Made by a program: the position numbers and the translations under genes. Positions 39,194-46,884 of a stretch of DNA of 64,000 bases are shown piece by piece (position 1 is the stretch's first letter; every line of letters starts with the position of its first letter). Source of the stretch: Myxococcales bacterium (GTDB lineage Bacteria > Myxococcota_A > Polyangia > Haliangiales > Haliangiaceae); assembly GCA_016794525.1 (NCBI GenBank), contig JAEUJY010000148.1:1-64000 (forward strand), read 5' to 3'. The notes below the pieces were generated by a model. It was not told the DNA's origin, did no database searches, and was given only the letters and a program-made list of their open reading frames with translations.

Positions 39194-40030
39194 ATGGCTC
39201 AGCCGTCGCGACGCGTCTTGCCGTACATCCTGGGGCTGCTGGTGTGCCTGGCAGCGGTGGCGATGGCGCGCCGCGGGTGGAGCTTCTACGGGCTGTCGCT
39301 CGAGGACCGCGTCGAGCACCCCGACTTCCGCAAGCTGCGGCCGAGCGGGATCATCGGCATGGGCTACGGCTTCGTCGCTGCCGGCCTGGTGATCCTCAAC
39401 CTGTCGTACCTGGTGCGGCGGCTGATCGCCAGCAGCAACCGCCTCGGCTCGATGCGGGTGTGGCTCGACCTGCACGTCTTCACCGGCCTGATGGCGGCGG
39501 TGCTGGTGGTGTTCCACTCGGCGCTGCAGCTGCGCACGCCGATCGCCAAGACCAGCGCGGCCAGCCTCGCGGTGGTCGTGCTGACCGGGCTGATCGGCCG
39601 CTTCCTCTACGCGCTGACGCCGCCTGACGCCAGCCGGCTGCGGCTCGCGCTCGACGGCCTCGAGGCCGCGGCGCCCGGCGCACGGCTGCAGGCCACGGCG
39701 ATCCTCGACGGGCTGCCCGCGCCGCGCCTGCCCGCCAACGCGTCGTTGCTCCGCAGCCTGATCACGATCCCGCGCTGGCGCCGGGTCGCGTCCCAGCGGA
39801 CCAGCGCGCTGCGCGTGCTCGAGCCGCCCCGCGCCGAGGCCACGCCCGACGTGCGCGCGGCGTGGCGCGAGCTGCACAAGGCGTCGAAGGCCGAGGCCCG
39901 CGCCAGCGGCATGGCCGCGCTCCTGCGCAGCTGGCGCGGCCTGCACCGGTTCTTCGCGCTGTTGATGTTGATCGCCGTCGGCGTCCACGCCGGCATCGCC
40001 TGGCACTACGGCTACCGCTGGATCTTCTGA
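39194..40030 (+). CDS. Di-heme b-type membrane cytochrome, first gene of the multiheme operon
   Basis: 278 residues with about five hydrophobic helices. His residues occur in pairs 14 apart, H94/H108 (DLHVFTGLMAAVLVVFHSAL) and H251/H265 (LHRFFALLMLIAVGVHAG), the classic spacing for two b hemes stacked between helices, as in cytochrome b561/ferric-reductase-like proteins. A cytoplasmic or periplasmic loop of ~100 polar residues lies between. It would pass electrons across the inner membrane to the periplasmic multiheme proteins encoded next. Its TGA (40028-40030) shares a base with the next ATG, so the two are coupled. Confidence 0.82.
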   Translation: MAQPSRRVLPYILGLLVCLAAVAMARRGWSFYGLSLEDRVEHPDFRKLRPSGIIGMGYGFVAAGLVILNLSYLVRRLIASSNRLGSMRVWLDLHVFTGLMAAVLVVFHSALQLRTPIAKTSAASLAVVVLTGLIGRFLYALTPPDASRLRLALDGLEAAAPGARLQATAILDGLPAPRLPANASLLRSLITIPRWRRVASQRTSALRVLEPPRAEATPDVRAAWRELHKASKAEARASGMAALLRSWRGLHRFFALLMLIAVGVHAGIAWHYGYRWIF

Positions 40031-41839
40031 TGCCTCGCCTGCTGTTCGCTCTCGTCGTGTGCGCGCTGGTCGCGATGACCGCCGGCCGCGCCGACGCGCA
40101 GCTCCTGTCGCCGGGGCCGCTGTCGGCGGCCCACGCCAGCATCGACGGCGACGATCACTGCGGCGAGTGCCACCAGTCGGGCAAGCAGGTGGTCGCCAGC
40201 CGCTGCCTGGCCTGCCACCAGGATCTGCGCGCGCGGCTCGACGCCGGCGCCGGCCTCCACGGCCGGCAGTACAAGGGGCAGGCCTGCGAGAACTGTCGAG
40301 CACATCGGCCGCAAGGCCAAGCTGGTGCGGTGGCCGGGCGGGTCGCCCGACAAGCTCGATCACGATCTCACCGGCTGGCCGCTCGCCGGCAAGCACCAGC
40401 CGGTGGGCTGCGCCAAGTGCCACACCAAGCAGAGCCCGCTCGGCAAGACCCAGTACGTCGGCACCAAGGCGACCTGCGCGAGCTGCCACAAGGACCCGCA
40501 CGCCAACCGGTTCGGCGGCGACTGCAAGAAGTGCCACGACGAGCGCGCCTGGGGCGACTTCGCCAAGGACAAGTTCGACCACGCGCAGGCCCGCTACCCG
40601 CTGACCGGCAAGCACGTGCCGGTGCCGTGCGAGAAGTGCCACGGCACGCCGGCCACGTGGACCGGCATCGCGTTCGGCGCGTGCGACGAGTGCCACGACG
40701 ATCCGCACGCCGGCGAGTTCAAGCCCAAGGCCTGCGCCGCTTGCCACCAGACCTCGGGATGGGAGAGCGCGTCGGACCTGATGCGCGATCAGCACCCGTG
40801 GCTGTCCTTGCGCAACGGCCACGCCCGGGTCGGCTGCAAGAAGTGCCACGACCGCGGCAACGACAAGGCGCCGAGCAAGGGCAACAGCTGCGTCGACTGC
40901 CACAAGGCGGTCCACGAGGCGCCGTTCGGCAACCGCTGCGACGGCTGTCACAAGACGATCAAGTGGCTGGGGCTGCCGGAGCAGATCGGTCGCGACGCCC
41001 ACCCCAAGACCGCCTACCCGCTCGAGGGCAAGCACCAGCGGGTGAGCTGCGCGAGCTGCCACCCCAAGGACAAGCCGGCCGCGGCGCGCTACCGCCAGCT
41101 CACGTTCGATCGCTGCGGCGCGTGCCACACCGACCGCCACGCCGGCGAGTTCGCGGCGCGCGCCGCCGGCGAGTGCGCGGCCTGCCACACCGTCGGTGGG
41201 TTCGCCCCGACGACGTTCGGCCCGCCCCAGCACGCCACCACCGCGTTCGTCCTCGACGGGCGCCACGCCGCGACGCCGTGCACCGGCTGCCACACCGCGC
41301 CGCGGCCGCGGCTCGACTGGCGCCAGCCCAAGCGCGCGTGCGCCGAGTGCCACGCCAACCCGCACGGCGATCAGTTCGCCAAGGAGCTGGCGGCCGGCGG
41401 CTGCGCGAGCTGCCACGCCACCGACGACTGGCGCCAGCCGCGCATCGATCACTCGACGTGGCCGCTCACCGGCAAGCACGCGACCACCGCGTGCGCGCGC
41501 TGCCACGGCGAGACCCAGGGCGCCGAGGCCGCGGCGTTCCGCGGCGTGCCCCGCACCTGCGACGGCTGCCACGACGACGTCCACGGCGGGCAGTTCCGGC
41601 TGAGCGCGCCGGTGCGGCGGTGCGAGGACTGCCACACCACCGCGCAGTTCACGCTGCCCGGCTTCGACCACGCGGCGATGACGACCTACCGCCTCGAGGG
41701 CAAGCACGCCGCGGTGGCGTGCGCGAAGTGCCACCAGCCCAGCGAGCTGCGCAACGGCGTGACCGCGACCCGCTACCGCCTCGGCTACCGCGCGTGCAAG
41801 GACTGCCACGCCAACCCGCACCGCGAGGACGCGCGATGA
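40030..41839 (+). pseudogene. Large multiheme c-type cytochrome (about 22 hemes), frameshifted
   Basis: ATG 40030 gives a signal peptide (LLFALVVCALVAMTAGRADA), then CGECH and CLACH. At 40294-40298 the frame breaks: CENC is followed by Arg, and the following base opens the frame that continues EHIGRKAKL...DKLDHDLTGW to the TGA at 41837-41839. That second part carries 20 more CXXCH motifs in a repeated layout (GKH-x2-V-x-C-x2-CH, then CHxDPHxxxF). I count 22 intact motifs plus the broken one. The expected text CENCHVEHIGR suggests loss of 5 bases between short GTC repeats. If not a sequencing error, no full protein is made. The first frame stays open to 42765 and would fuse with the next gene's product. 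Confidence 0.85.
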
Positions 41840-42765
41840 TGGCGCGGCTCACCATCGTGCTGGCGCTGGCGATCGCGACCGCGATCGCCGTGGCCGCACC
41901 GCCGGCCGCGACGCCGCCGACGCCGCCGACGCCGCCGCCCCCCGCACCCGCACCCACCGCACCCGCGCCCGCCGCGTCCGCCCACGGCGGCCTGGTCGAC
42001 GACCTCGACTGCTCGGCGTGCCACACGCCCGACGGCTGGGCGATGAGCGCCGGCGCCGGCCGGGGCTTCGATCACGATCGCACCGGCTTCCCGCTGCGCG
42101 GCGCCCACGCCCAGCGGCCGTGCTCGAGCTGCCACCAGGGCCAGGGCACGCCGCCGTCGACCTGCGAGGGCTGCCACCGCGATCCGCACCAGCGCCGCGT
42201 CGCCGGCGCGTGCGTCGAGTGCCACACCGCGACGGCGTGGAGCGACACCGACGCGCTGGCCCGCCACCGCCGCACCCGCATGCCGCTGACCGGGCGCCAC
42301 GCGGTCATCGACTGCGTCGCGTGCCACACCCGCGGCGAGCGGTCGTGGAGCGGCGTGCCGACCGACTGCTACGCGTGCCACGCCGCCGACTACCGCGACC
42401 CCGCCACGCACCCCGATCACGACGGCGACCCCGCCGATCCGACGATCGCGCGCCTGCCGCGCACGTGCGGCCAGTGCCACCGCACCAGCGGCTGGAAGCC
42501 GGCGGTGTTCGATCCGACGATGCTGCCGTCGTCGATCGCGGCCCGCGCGGCGCAGCGCCACGACGCGGTCTTCGCGCTGTCGACCGGCCCGCACCAGGGC
42601 AGCGAGTGCGCGAGCTGCCACGTCGATCGCCTGCGGCCGCGGCGCGTGCGCTGCGACGGCTGCCACGCCACCGACACGCTGCGCGCGCAGCACCCGACCG
42701 CCGCGATCACCAGCCGGCGCGCCGCCGCGTGCCTGGCGTGCCACCCGCGCGGGAGGGCGCGGTGA
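41836..42765 (+). CDS. Decaheme c-type cytochrome, periplasmic
   Basis: ATG 41836 overlaps the previous stop (ATGA). 309 residues: signal peptide (LTIVLALAIATAIAVAA), a Pro/Thr/Ala linker, then ten CXXCH motifs (CSACH, CSSCH, CEGCH, CVECH, CVACH, CYACH, CGQCH, CASCH, CDGCH, CLACH) spread to the C-terminus. Distal His residues recur in PLTGRH and PLRGAH turns. It should be loaded with heme by the cytochrome c maturation machinery in the periplasm and act as an electron wire. It is coupled to the beta-barrel gene by a GTGA overlap at 42762. Confidence 0.9.
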   Translation: MMARLTIVLALAIATAIAVAAPPAATPPTPPTPPPPAPAPTAPAPAASAHGGLVDDLDCSACHTPDGWAMSAGAGRGFDHDRTGFPLRGAHAQRPCSSCHQGQGTPPSTCEGCHRDPHQRRVAGACVECHTATAWSDTDALARHRRTRMPLTGRHAVIDCVACHTRGERSWSGVPTDCYACHAADYRDPATHPDHDGDPADPTIARLPRTCGQCHRTSGWKPAVFDPTMLPSSIAARAAQRHDAVFALSTGPHQGSECASCHVDRLRPRRVRCDGCHATDTLRAQHPTAAITSRRAAACLACHPRGRAR

Positions 42766-44393
42766 GGACGGCCCCGCTGATCGCCGCGCTCGCGGTGACC
42801 GCGGCGCCCGCCGTCGCGCGGGCCGCGCCGATCGCCGTCACCGTGGTCGACACCGCCGGCGACGTCGCCTACGTGACGCCCGGCCGCGACGCCGGCCTCG
42901 CGCCCGGCGTGACCGTGCGCTTCGGCGATCGCGCGCTGGTCGTGGTCGACGTCACCGCCGGCACCGCGGTGCTCGCGCTGGCCGGCGCGCCGCTGCCGAT
43001 CGGGGCGAGCGGCACCGCCGACGTGACGCCCGGCGCCAGCGCCGCCGCGGTGGCGCGCATGCCGACGCCGCGGCCGCTCGACGGCTGGCGCGCGCAGTGG
43101 CCCGACGCCACCCGCCCCGCCGACGCGCAGCACCCGGCGGCGGTGCCGCTGGGCAGCGGCGGCCCGGTCGGTCGGCTGCACGCCGCGCTGACCTTGCACG
43201 GCGCCGCGGCGGTCGACGGCGCGCCGACCGCCAGCGCCGATCTGCGCGCGCGGGTGTCGTACCAGCTCCGCACCGATCGCCCGCTCAGCGTCGACGTCGA
43301 CCTCAGCGGCCGCGGCTCGCTCGACGGCCACACCGGCGCCCGCACGCCGGTGTGGGTCCACCGCGCGCAGCTGCGCTACGGCGACGCCTACGATCCGCGG
43401 CTGGCGGTGGGCCGGCTGGCGTGGGCGGCGTCGGGCGTCGGCATGCTCGACGGCGTGCGCGGCATGGCCCGCGTCGGCGCGGTCGAGCTGGCCGGCTTCG
43501 GCGGCCTGGTGCCCGATCCGCTCGACGGCCGCCCCGACACCGGCGCGACCCGCTTCGGCGCCGAGGCGAGCTACGACGCGCCGGCCGCACCGTGGCAGCC
43601 GCGCCTCGTGCTCACGCTCGCGGGCTCGACCTGGAGCGGCCAGCTCGACGAGCGGCGCGCGGCGATCACCGCCGAGGCCAGCCGCGGCGCGGTCACCGCC
43701 TCGGCGTGGGCCGACGCGCAGGCGTTCGCCGCCGCCAACCCGTGGGGCGCCGCCGCGATCGAGCTCACCGGCGCCGGCGCCGCGATCGACTGGCAGCGCC
43801 GCGGCCAGCGCGCCTCTCTCGACGTGGCGATGGCGCGCCCCGAGCGCAGCCTGCGCCTCGAGGCCGCGCTGCCCGCCGGCTGGCTGTGCTGGCGGCGCGA
43901 GGGCGACGTCGCCGCCGATCCGGCCGCCGAGCCGTGCGCCGGCGACGACGCCACGATCGGCGCCGCGGCTTCGGCCGGGCTCACCCGCGGCTCGTGGCGC
44001 GTCGACGCCAGCGTGCGCGCCAGCCGCACCACCACCGCGACCCGCTTCGACGACCTCGCCGCGGTCGCGCTCGGCGAGTACCAGCTGCGCCCCGGCCTGC
44101 GGCTCCTGGCCGGCGCCAGCGGCGGCCGCGCGGCGTTCCTCGACTGGTACGCGGTCGAGGGCGGCGTCGGCCTCGATCGCGGCCGGCGCTGGGACGCCAC
44201 CGTCCGCTACCGCCCCGAGCTGATCGCCTACGTCGGCGCGCTCGATCGCTTCGTCAGCCACGCGCTGGCGCTCGACGGTCGCTACCACGTCAACCGCGCG
44301 CTCGACGTCGCGGTCGCCGCCTCGGCCACCACCGGCGAGGATCGCGACGCGCTGGCCGTGCTCACCACCGTCGCCTGGAGGCCGCGGCCATGA
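42762..44393 (+). CDS. Outer-membrane beta-barrel of the multiheme conduit (MtrB/PioB-like role)
   Basis: GTG 42762 overlaps the decaheme gene stop. 543 residues: signal peptide (TAPLIAALAVTAAPAVARAAP), a small N-terminal beta domain (VTVVDTAGDVAYVTPGRDAGL), then ~400 residues of alternating amphipathic strands and polar turns (LTLHGAAAVDGA, RARVSYQLRTDRPLSVDVDL, ALDGRYHVNRALDVAVAASATTGEDRD). No CXXCH. Its place between periplasmic and lipid-anchored multiheme genes fits a porin that sheathes cytochromes across the outer membrane. Sequence similarity to MtrB or PioB cannot be judged here; the role is inferred from context. Confidence 0.75.
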   Translation: MRTAPLIAALAVTAAPAVARAAPIAVTVVDTAGDVAYVTPGRDAGLAPGVTVRFGDRALVVVDVTAGTAVLALAGAPLPIGASGTADVTPGASAAAVARMPTPRPLDGWRAQWPDATRPADAQHPAAVPLGSGGPVGRLHAALTLHGAAAVDGAPTASADLRARVSYQLRTDRPLSVDVDLSGRGSLDGHTGARTPVWVHRAQLRYGDAYDPRLAVGRLAWAASGVGMLDGVRGMARVGAVELAGFGGLVPDPLDGRPDTGATRFGAEASYDAPAAPWQPRLVLTLAGSTWSGQLDERRAAITAEASRGAVTASAWADAQAFAAANPWGAAAIELTGAGAAIDWQRRGQRASLDVAMARPERSLRLEAALPAGWLCWRREGDVAADPAAEPCAGDDATIGAAASAGLTRGSWRVDASVRASRTTTATRFDDLAAVALGEYQLRPGLRLLAGASGGRAAFLDWYAVEGGVGLDRGRRWDATVRYRPELIAYVGALDRFVSHALALDGRYHVNRALDVAVAASATTGEDRDALAVLTTVAWRPRP

Positions 44394-44812
44394 CGCTCAC
44401 CCGCGCGCTCGCCGTGCTCGCGTCGCTGGCGCTCGCCGCCGGCTGCCTGCGCGATCACGATCCGGCGCTGATCCAGACCGGCAGCAACGACTGCTACACC
44501 TGCCACCACAGCAACTACGTCGCGACCACCGCGCCGGCGCACACCAGCGAGCCGACGCGCTACCACCGCGCGTGCGGCGACTGCCACAAGACCAGCGCCT
44601 GGCAGCCCGCGCTCGAGGGCCCGCACGCCGGCCGCTTCCCGCGCGGCGGCGCCCACAGCGACGTCGCGTGCCTCGAGTGCCACGACCCCGAGCGCGGCCC
44701 GAGCGCCGACGGCGCCAACACGATCTGCGCGCTGTGCCACACCAGCGCCCACCACCGCGATCCCGCGAACCCCAGCGGGTGCCTGCAGTGCCACCGCGAC
44801 GGAGGTGATTGA
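44390..44812 (+). CDS. Pentaheme c-type cytochrome lipoprotein
   Basis: ATG 44390 overlaps the previous stop (ATGA). 140 residues with a lipoprotein signal (LAVLASLALAAGC) and five CXXCH motifs: CYTCH, CGDCH, CLECH, CALCH, CLQCH. The lipid anchor suggests the outer membrane, perhaps facing outward as a terminal electron carrier. It shares its layout (DNDCYxCHxxNY, then a heme every ~25 residues) with the next gene, so the two probably arose by duplication. Confidence 0.88.
   Translation: MTLTRALAVLASLALAAGCLRDHDPALIQTGSNDCYTCHHSNYVATTAPAHTSEPTRYHRACGDCHKTSAWQPALEGPHAGRFPRGGAHSDVACLECHDPERGPSADGANTICALCHTSAHHRDPANPSGCLQCHRDGGD
44801..44809 (+). promoter_or_regulatory. Strong ribosome binding site deciding the octaheme start
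   Basis: GGAGGTGAT is a near-perfect anti-16S match, 8 nt (from GGAGG) before GTG 44814. It makes the GTG at 44805, which lies inside this site, an unlikely start. Confidence 0.7.
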
Positions 44813-44813
44813 C

Positions 44814-45497
44814 GTGCGCACCCTCGTCCTCGTCCTCGTCGCCGCGCTGACGGCCGCCTGCGGCCTCGAGCGCCACGCCAACACCGACGGCATCGCCGAC
44901 AACGACTGCTACGCGTGCCACCGGGCCAACTACGAGCAGGCCAGCGATCCGGTCCACGTCGGCGTCATGCCCACCACCTGCCGCGACTGCCACTCGCAGA
45001 TCGCGTGGCGACCGGCCGGCCCGCACCCCGACGCCGCCTTCCCGATCCGCAGCGGGCCGCACGCCGCGGTCGACTGCGGCGCCTGCCACAAGGCCGCGCT
45101 CGGCCCGCCGACCGACGGCGCCAACACCGACTGCCTGACCTGCCACACCCAGGCCACGACCGCGCCGGCCCACGTCGGCGAGCCCGGGTACAGCTGGGAT
45201 CCGGCGTTCCCGCACTCGTGCCTGACGTGCCACCCGCAGGGCCTCGCCAACAAGCACCCCGAGGATCGCTTCCCGATCGCGTCGGGCCCGCACCAGATGC
45301 CGTGCGCGGACTGCCACATCCGCGCGACCGGGCCCAACACCGGCGGCATGAACACGACCTGCATCGGCTGCCACACCGGCGAGCACGCGCTCACCCGCGC
45401 CGACCGCCAGCACGACGAGGTCGGCGACTACGGCCAGCACCGCGATCCGACCAAGCCGCACTTCTGCCTCGACTGCCACCCCAACGGGCGCCACTGA
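44814..45497 (+). CDS. Octaheme c-type cytochrome lipoprotein
   Basis: Start GTG 44814 rests on the ribosome site at 44801. 227 residues: lipoprotein signal (TLVLVLVAALTAAC), then eight CXXCH motifs: CYACH, CRDCH, CGACH, CLTCH, CLTCH, CADCH, CIGCH, CLDCH. Spacing suggests an internally duplicated tetraheme unit (each half contains FPIRSGPH or FPIASGPH before a heme). Probably an outer-membrane electron carrier working with the pentaheme lipoprotein. The TGA 45495-45497 overlaps the next ATG. Confidence 0.9.
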   Translation: MRTLVLVLVAALTAACGLERHANTDGIADNDCYACHRANYEQASDPVHVGVMPTTCRDCHSQIAWRPAGPHPDAAFPIRSGPHAAVDCGACHKAALGPPTDGANTDCLTCHTQATTAPAHVGEPGYSWDPAFPHSCLTCHPQGLANKHPEDRFPIASGPHQMPCADCHIRATGPNTGGMNTTCIGCHTGEHALTRADRQHDEVGDYGQHRDPTKPHFCLDCHPNGRH

Positions 45498-46801
45498 TGA
45501 GCGGCTTCATCGTCATCGTCGCGCTGGTCGCCGCCGCCGGGGTGCCGTACCTCGCGTGGACGTGGATCGATCGCCGACGCCACGGCCGCGCCGCGCAGAT
45601 CCACGACGACATCGCCGCGCTCGGCGAGGACGCGCTGCCCAGCTCGCTGCACCCGGTGATCGATCTCGACGACTGCATCGGCTCGGGCGCCTGCGTCCGC
45701 GCCTGCCCCGAGCAAGAGATCCTGGGCATCACCGACGGCCGCGCCCGGCTGATCAACCCGCTGGCGTGCGTCGGCCACGGCGCGTGCCTGGCGGCGTGCC
45801 CGGTCGGCGCGATCAAGCTGGTGTTCGGCACCGCCACCCGCGGCGTCGAGCTGCCCAAGGTCAACGCCAGCTTCGAGACCAGCCACGCCGGGGTCTACGT
45901 CGTCGGCGAGCTCGGCGGGATGGGGCTGATCAAGAACGCGATCGCCCAGGCCCGGCAGGCCGGCGACGACATCGCCCGCGCGGGGCGCCGCGGTCGCGCC
46001 GGCGAGCTCGACGCGATCGTCGTCGGCGCGGGCCCGGCGGGCCTCGGCAGCGCGCTGGCGCTGATGGCCCACGGCCTGCGGGTGCTGGTGCTCGAGCAGT
46101 CGGCGTTCGGCGGCACGATCACCCACTACCCGCGCGCCAAGGTGGTGATGACCGGCAACCTCGAGCTGCCCGGCTACGGCACCGTGCGCCGCAAGACCAT
46201 GTCCAAGGAGGACCTGCTGGCGCTGTGGGACGACATCCGCGAGCGCACCCAGCTGCCGATCCGCGAGGGCGTGCGCGTCGACGGCCTGATCGAGGAAGGC
46301 GGCCGCTGGCGGGTCATCGGCGACGGCCTCGACGAGCCGGCCGCCAACGTCGTGCTGGCGCTGGGCCGCCGCGGCGCGCCGCGCCAGCTCGGCGTCCCCG
46401 GCGAGGATCTGCCCAAGGTCAGCTACCGCATGATCGAGCCCGCCGCGTTCGCCGGCCGCCGGGTGCTGGTCGTCGGCGGCGGCAACGCCGCGGCCGACTG
46501 CGCGCTGGGGCTGGTCGGCGTCGCCGCGTCGGTCGGCCTGTCGTACCGCCGCGCCGAGCTGGCCCGCCTGCGCGCCTCGGTGCGCGCCCGCATCGAGGCC
46601 GCGTTCGCCAGCGGCGCCATCACGCCGCACCTCGGCACCGACGTCGTGCGCATCACCGAGCACCACGTCGAGCTGCGCCGCGACCACCACGTCGAGTCGC
46701 TCGCCAACGACGACGTGATCGTCCAGATCGGCGGCACCCCGCCCAACCAGCTGCTCAAGGCCATCGGCATCGAGCTGGTCGAGAAGCGCGGCGAGGCCTG
46801 A
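45497..46801 (+). CDS. Membrane-anchored ferredoxin/FAD-NAD(P) oxidoreductase
   Basis: 434 residues. N-terminal helix (FIVIVALVAAAGVPYLAW), then two ferredoxin-like clusters at residues 60-71 (CIGSGACVRACP) and 91-102 (CVGHGACLAACP), in each of which the second Cys of the usual CxxCxxCxxxCP is replaced (Ser63, His94). An FAD site follows (VVGAGPAGLGSALAL), then an NAD(P) site (VLVVGGGNAAADCAL) and the closing block GGTPPNQLLKAIG. The plan is that of thioredoxin-reductase-like flavoproteins with an Fe-S head. As the last gene of the operon it could feed NAD(P)H electrons to the di-heme membrane protein, or take them from it. Confidence 0.88.
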   Translation: MSGFIVIVALVAAAGVPYLAWTWIDRRRHGRAAQIHDDIAALGEDALPSSLHPVIDLDDCIGSGACVRACPEQEILGITDGRARLINPLACVGHGACLAACPVGAIKLVFGTATRGVELPKVNASFETSHAGVYVVGELGGMGLIKNAIAQARQAGDDIARAGRRGRAGELDAIVVGAGPAGLGSALALMAHGLRVLVLEQSAFGGTITHYPRAKVVMTGNLELPGYGTVRRKTMSKEDLLALWDDIRERTQLPIREGVRVDGLIEEGGRWRVIGDGLDEPAANVVLALGRRGAPRQLGVPGEDLPKVSYRMIEPAAFAGRRVLVVGGGNAAADCALGLVGVAASVGLSYRRAELARLRASVRARIEAAFASGAITPHLGTDVVRITEHHVELRRDHHVESLANDDVIVQIGGTPPNQLLKAIGIELVEKRGEA

Positions 46802-46884
46802 CGCCCCCGCCCCGGTGAGGCCACGTAAGCCGGCGCGGCTTGCCAGCGCCCCTCGACGGGCGTATCCCGGTCGTGGAGGCTCCC

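Follow-up and report, generated by a model that had tools for sequence, protein, structure and literature searches.

A five-base break in a 23-haem cytochrome gene of a Myxococcales bacterium, probably a recent gene-breaking deletion

Frameshifted pseudogenes have been described in Geobacter bemidjiensis, some of them polymorphic with intact minor alleles (PMC2996986). We analyzed a similar case in a 64,000-nucleotide stretch of DNA from a Myxococcales bacterium (the window; contig JAEUJY010000148.1 of assembly GCA_016794525.1), where a gene for a 23-haem c-type cytochrome spans positions 40030–41839 with its coding sequence split over two reading frames. As in G. bemidjiensis, a small indel breaks an otherwise conserved gene, whereas the gene broken here encodes a cytochrome and lacks 5 bases at a site with 3-bp microhomology. 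The haem-repeat region of the window protein matches the profiles of Cytochrome_C7 (PF14522) and of the DmsE-family decahaem cytochromes (TIGR03508), although the TIGR03508 score falls well short of the model's curated cut-off (45.4 versus 192.2 bits) and the window protein has 23 haems rather than 10. A search of one literature library found no paper treating this cytochrome or its operon. Closer counterparts come from related genomes, for which L, G and C numbers are our handles for loci, genomes and contigs: a whole-genome search of relatives returned six same-family orthologues with 59–65% identity (L010–L015) as well as further homologues, and a collection scan added the orthologue L040 (51% identity). 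These seven genes encode proteins of 598–616 residues, share the operon neighbours of the window gene and are 51–65% identical to it in the part C-terminal to the break. Unlike the window copy, which is short of five bases at motif 3, all seven are intact, with 23 CxxCH haem motifs and no CxxC lacking its histidine. With 22 CxxCH and a broken CENC, a length of approximately 600 residues and conserved neighbours, the window gene belongs to this orthologue group. Its parts are as follows.

40030..40296, plus strand: 5' part of the 23-haem cytochrome gene, with a signal peptide (MPRLLFALVVCALVAMTAGRADA; recognized by inspection), CxxCH motifs 1 and 2 and the CENC of motif 3; 54–63% identity to the orthologues (n = 7)
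40294..40298, plus strand: junction identified by homologue comparison and codon scan, with a net loss of 5 bases, a shift of frame and loss of the histidine of CENC-H; placement ambiguous by at most 3 bases
40298..41839, plus strand: continuation of the 23-haem coding sequence after the change of frame; 20 intact CxxCH within 513 codons, followed by the stop codon TGA at 41837–41839

Read directly, the first frame proceeds from the ATG at 40030 through the signal peptide and two CxxCH motifs to TGC GAG AAC TGT (CENC, 40285–40296), and its next codon is CGA, a rare arginine codon that makes up 5 of 261 in these genes. From 40298 onward, the second frame translates as EHIGRKAKLV... (EHIGRKAKLVRWPGG...) and contains 20 CxxCH before the stop codon. 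The window total is therefore 22 CxxCH plus CENC, with the haem-ligating histidine missing at the third of the 23 motifs. This reading bears out a preliminary description of the sequence, which had noted CENC followed by Arg and a multihaem protein resuming one base later. That description also called the gene the largest cytochrome, which is correct within the window but not in the genome, where contig C41 carries a paralogue with 27 CxxCH in a single open frame. A Viterbi scan with a codon-usage model derived from this same genome, which drew on no homology and was blind to the finding, placed a frameshift at 40294. The junction sits outside any homopolymer.

To compare the junction among relatives, we counted every homologue whose N-terminal match reaches the CENC position, giving 30 rows and 28 distinct sites (L039/L010 and L002/L003 are duplicate places). 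All 28 distinct sites keep one uninterrupted frame across the junction, and in each of them a histidine and one more codon (6 nt) separate CxxC from (E/D)H, where the window has 1 nt; the net loss is 5 bases, no multiple of three. These homologous sites and the blind codon scan rule out chance as the cause of the frame break. The preliminary description had proposed that inserting CACGT would restore both the frame and CENCH, and this exact string is present in L012 and L014, whose junction reads TGT CAC GTC GAG CAC. We also considered whether the second part might be a separate gene starting after the break, with relatives sharing the window's sequence and such a start. This possibility is ruled out, as the relatives have a single gene that is intact across the site and the second part lacks a signal peptide. 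No second copy of the 23-haem gene was found in the genome, and no closer relative with the same deletion was found among 30 family genomes.

Outside the junction, the gene is as well conserved as its intact counterparts. An alignment of the seven orthologues has 27 invariant columns N-terminal and 175 C-terminal to the break, and the window differs at 0 of the 27 and 2 of the 175 (K to R and S to T, both conservative). Leaving out each orthologue in turn yielded 0–13 C-terminal changes, so the window value is as low as those of intact orthologues. All other haem motifs are kept, the 513 codons contain no stop, and there is no decay beyond the junction. The absence of other decay speaks against an old pseudogene: either the organism acquired the lesion very recently, or the lesion is a consensus or assembly error that the organism itself does not carry.

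We consider the best explanation, with a probability of roughly 0.63, to be a recent 5-base deletion that has produced a null allele of this exported cytochrome gene in the sequenced cell or in the majority of its population. Translation from 40030 would stay correct for 89 residues, which include two haem motifs, before turning into arginine-rich nonsense. The haem-rich remainder of 513 residues would lack a signal peptide of its own, and an internal restart (e.g., at GTG 40325) would not be expected to give export or haem loading; because the remainder has no signal peptide and the chain is nonsense after residue 89, the allele would be null for this cytochrome. With an ancestor reading TGTCACGTCGAG, the deletion is bracketed by a pair of GTC copies spaced 5 bases apart, which is the pattern of a short-repeat deletion. 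Slippage at GTC repeats had been proposed in the preliminary description, and the GTC...GTC arrangement is real if the ancestral motif ended in TGT; however, the microhomology is 3 bp, and at least as much occurs at 6–12% of random 5-bp deletion sites in three orthologues. Had the motif ended in TGC, as in the nearest orthologue L011, the microhomology would be 1 bp. Slippage is compatible with the junction, the microhomology being weak evidence for it.

The rival that deserves most attention is that the 23-haem gene is intact in the organism and that the draft lost five bases, either because the gene is repeat-rich and GC-rich or through mixed strains; we regard this as possible, at well under even odds. 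Several observations weigh against a lesion in the cell and favor such an error. The gene is made of repeated CxxCH/GKH units that are able to mislead an assembler, the assembly is a draft of 177 contigs, and the complete lack of other decay, with the rest of the gene under full constraint, fits a consensus error equally well. Furthermore, L099 (G020:C536), a distant homologue of the 36-haem type from a different draft genome, is also frameshifted, on the reverse strand at about 1547–1636, approximately where it lacks a haem-bearing segment that L098 has; this is an independent break, real or assembly-made. Conversely, sequencing errors do not usually take the form of a clean 5-base loss outside a homopolymer, and the general frameshift density is low. 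The latter was assessed with a codon-model scan that covered 444 kb of this genome (window included; 380 kb elsewhere) and 377 kb of the sister genome G006. Most raw matches lie only a few bases from stop codons and are edge artefacts; events in such positions were excluded. Besides the break in the window, the scan returned for this genome one clear frameshift, in a PhoD-like gene (contig C128), and one event in a low-complexity tail. In G006, a FlgI-like gene held the one clear case, alongside an artefact at a gene boundary; the PhoD-like and FlgI-like names come from inspecting translations, with no search behind them. Inspection by eye discarded L059:14131, in an Arg/Gly-rich tail, and L096:18740, at a gene boundary. 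Internal frameshifts are rare in this genome and G006 alike, and the assembly is not generally indel-ridden; with this low density over the 444 kb and 377 kb sampled, general indel noise is ruled out. The PhoD-like phosphatase gene (L063, G000:C128, about 146246) is frameshifted in a GGGCCC context.

The break also leaves a long formal reading frame that joins the 5' part to the next gene.

40030..42765, plus strand: formal fusion frame of 911 residues, comprising the 5' part, 513 shadow-frame residues and the whole decahaem preprotein
41836..42765, plus strand: decahaem cytochrome gene, 309 residues, 10 CxxCH, with its own GAGGA approximately 6 nt before the ATG, an ATGA overlap with the previous stop and its own signal peptide

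The first frame is open from 40030 to the stop at 42763–42765 and runs in frame through the decahaem ATG at 41836, so the 911-residue fusion described earlier exists as a frame, but a meaningful product does not follow from it. Of the 513 shifted residues, 27% are Arg, 15% Ala, 13% Pro and none Cys, the product would carry the signal peptide of the decahaem preprotein internally, and the decahaem gene has its own start; a working fusion protein is not credible. The decahaem gene is probably still translated from its own ATG, perhaps at a reduced level if its translation is coupled to the upstream stop. The length of the open shifted frame is likewise of no significance given the GC-rich expectation, codon shuffles and L013: at 74.7% GC, stretches of 500 or more codons without a stop occur 57 times in the six frames of the window, the shifted frame stays open in 7% of shuffles of the 513 codons, and in L013 the same frame is open over all 603 codons and the next gene also starts in that frame. 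The next gene lies in the shifted frame because of the stop/start overlap (ATGA or TGATG). Natural in-frame fusions of 23-haem and decahaem homologues occur in L016 (G015; 920 residues, 35 haems) and L017 (G031; 924 residues, 36 haems). Like the window frame, they place both homologues in one chain; unlike it, they are true in-frame fusions that keep all haems. L098 (G022:C416) also has 34 CxxCH in one open frame, with homologues of both genes fused.

Two further readings would keep the locus functional. A +1 ribosomal shift at TGT-C-GAG could in principle yield the full-length protein, as the downstream frame is open with conserved residues and the CGA at the junction is rare. Such a shift would nevertheless give CENC-E, still without the histidine and with one haem site lost, and the shift site is found in no relative, all of which are intact in one frame. 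To our knowledge, this site has no slippery or stop context known for recoding. Programmed +1 frameshifting is ruled out because relatives have no shift site and the functional motif would not be restored, leaving translational recoding exceedingly improbable as an account of the locus. The second reading is a functional or phase-variable allele, in which the deletion would act as a switch for the conduit cytochrome or create a useful fusion with the decahaem cytochrome. The natural fusions in L016 and L017 and the polymorphic frameshifts known in Geobacter (PMC2996986) would favor it, but here 20 haem motifs are replaced by 513 Cys-free residues, unlike in the natural fusions, and a 3-bp microhomology is not a hypermutable tract; we consider this very unlikely. 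Equally far-fetched is the idea that the deletion is a standing polymorphism that switches off the operon's largest conduit cytochrome with the decahaem cytochrome left on, an extracellular electron route being lost reversibly or under selection. The frame break involves no new mechanism: it is either a recent gene-breaking mutation of an ordinary kind or an assembly error.

The neighbouring genes place the cytochrome in a conserved operon.

39194..40030, plus strand: upstream membrane protein, 278 residues, adjoining the cytochrome gene in those relatives that were checked; its Pfam match to DUF4405 is weak and below the cutoff
42762..44390, plus strand: 542-residue operon protein, a conserved neighbour in L039, L040, L041 and L078
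44390..44812, plus strand: small multihaem cytochrome, 5 CxxCH
44805..45497, plus strand: small multihaem cytochrome, 8 CxxCH
45497..46804, plus strand: ferredoxin-domain and FAD/NAD(P) oxidoreductase, a conserved operon partner (66% identity in L078)

The upstream membrane protein is 47–62% identical to its counterparts in L012, L013, L039, L040 and L078 and 36–37% identical to those in L016 and L017. No Pfam or NCBIfam model matched the 542-residue protein, which is probably an outer-membrane barrel judging from its context. The run of membrane protein, 23-haem cytochrome, decahaem cytochrome, 542-residue protein, small multihaem cytochromes and ferredoxin/FAD oxidoreductase is conserved in relatives, and its layout resembles an electron conduit from a cytoplasmic oxidoreductase to the outer membrane.

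For annotation, the region should be treated as one disrupted 23-haem gene, neither the 911-residue fusion nor the 504-residue leaderless cytochrome that automatic gene callers may report here. If the lesion is real, the organism would be a naturally occurring null mutant for one of the cytochromes of a conserved electron conduit, and the break could hint at loss of the pathway in the genus, the orthologue being absent from the other six genus genomes examined. The orthologue is thus present in one of seven genus genomes (this one) and, within the family, in genera g1, g5 and g6; the 23-haem gene of the 39194–46804 operon is accordingly found in two family genera besides its own. Such a patchy distribution suggests gain by transfer or repeated loss. 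In L027 (G016:C632), the frame changes at about 1700–1801 between two multihaem runs, with no intervening stop in the old frame, which could reflect overlapping genes or another frameshift.
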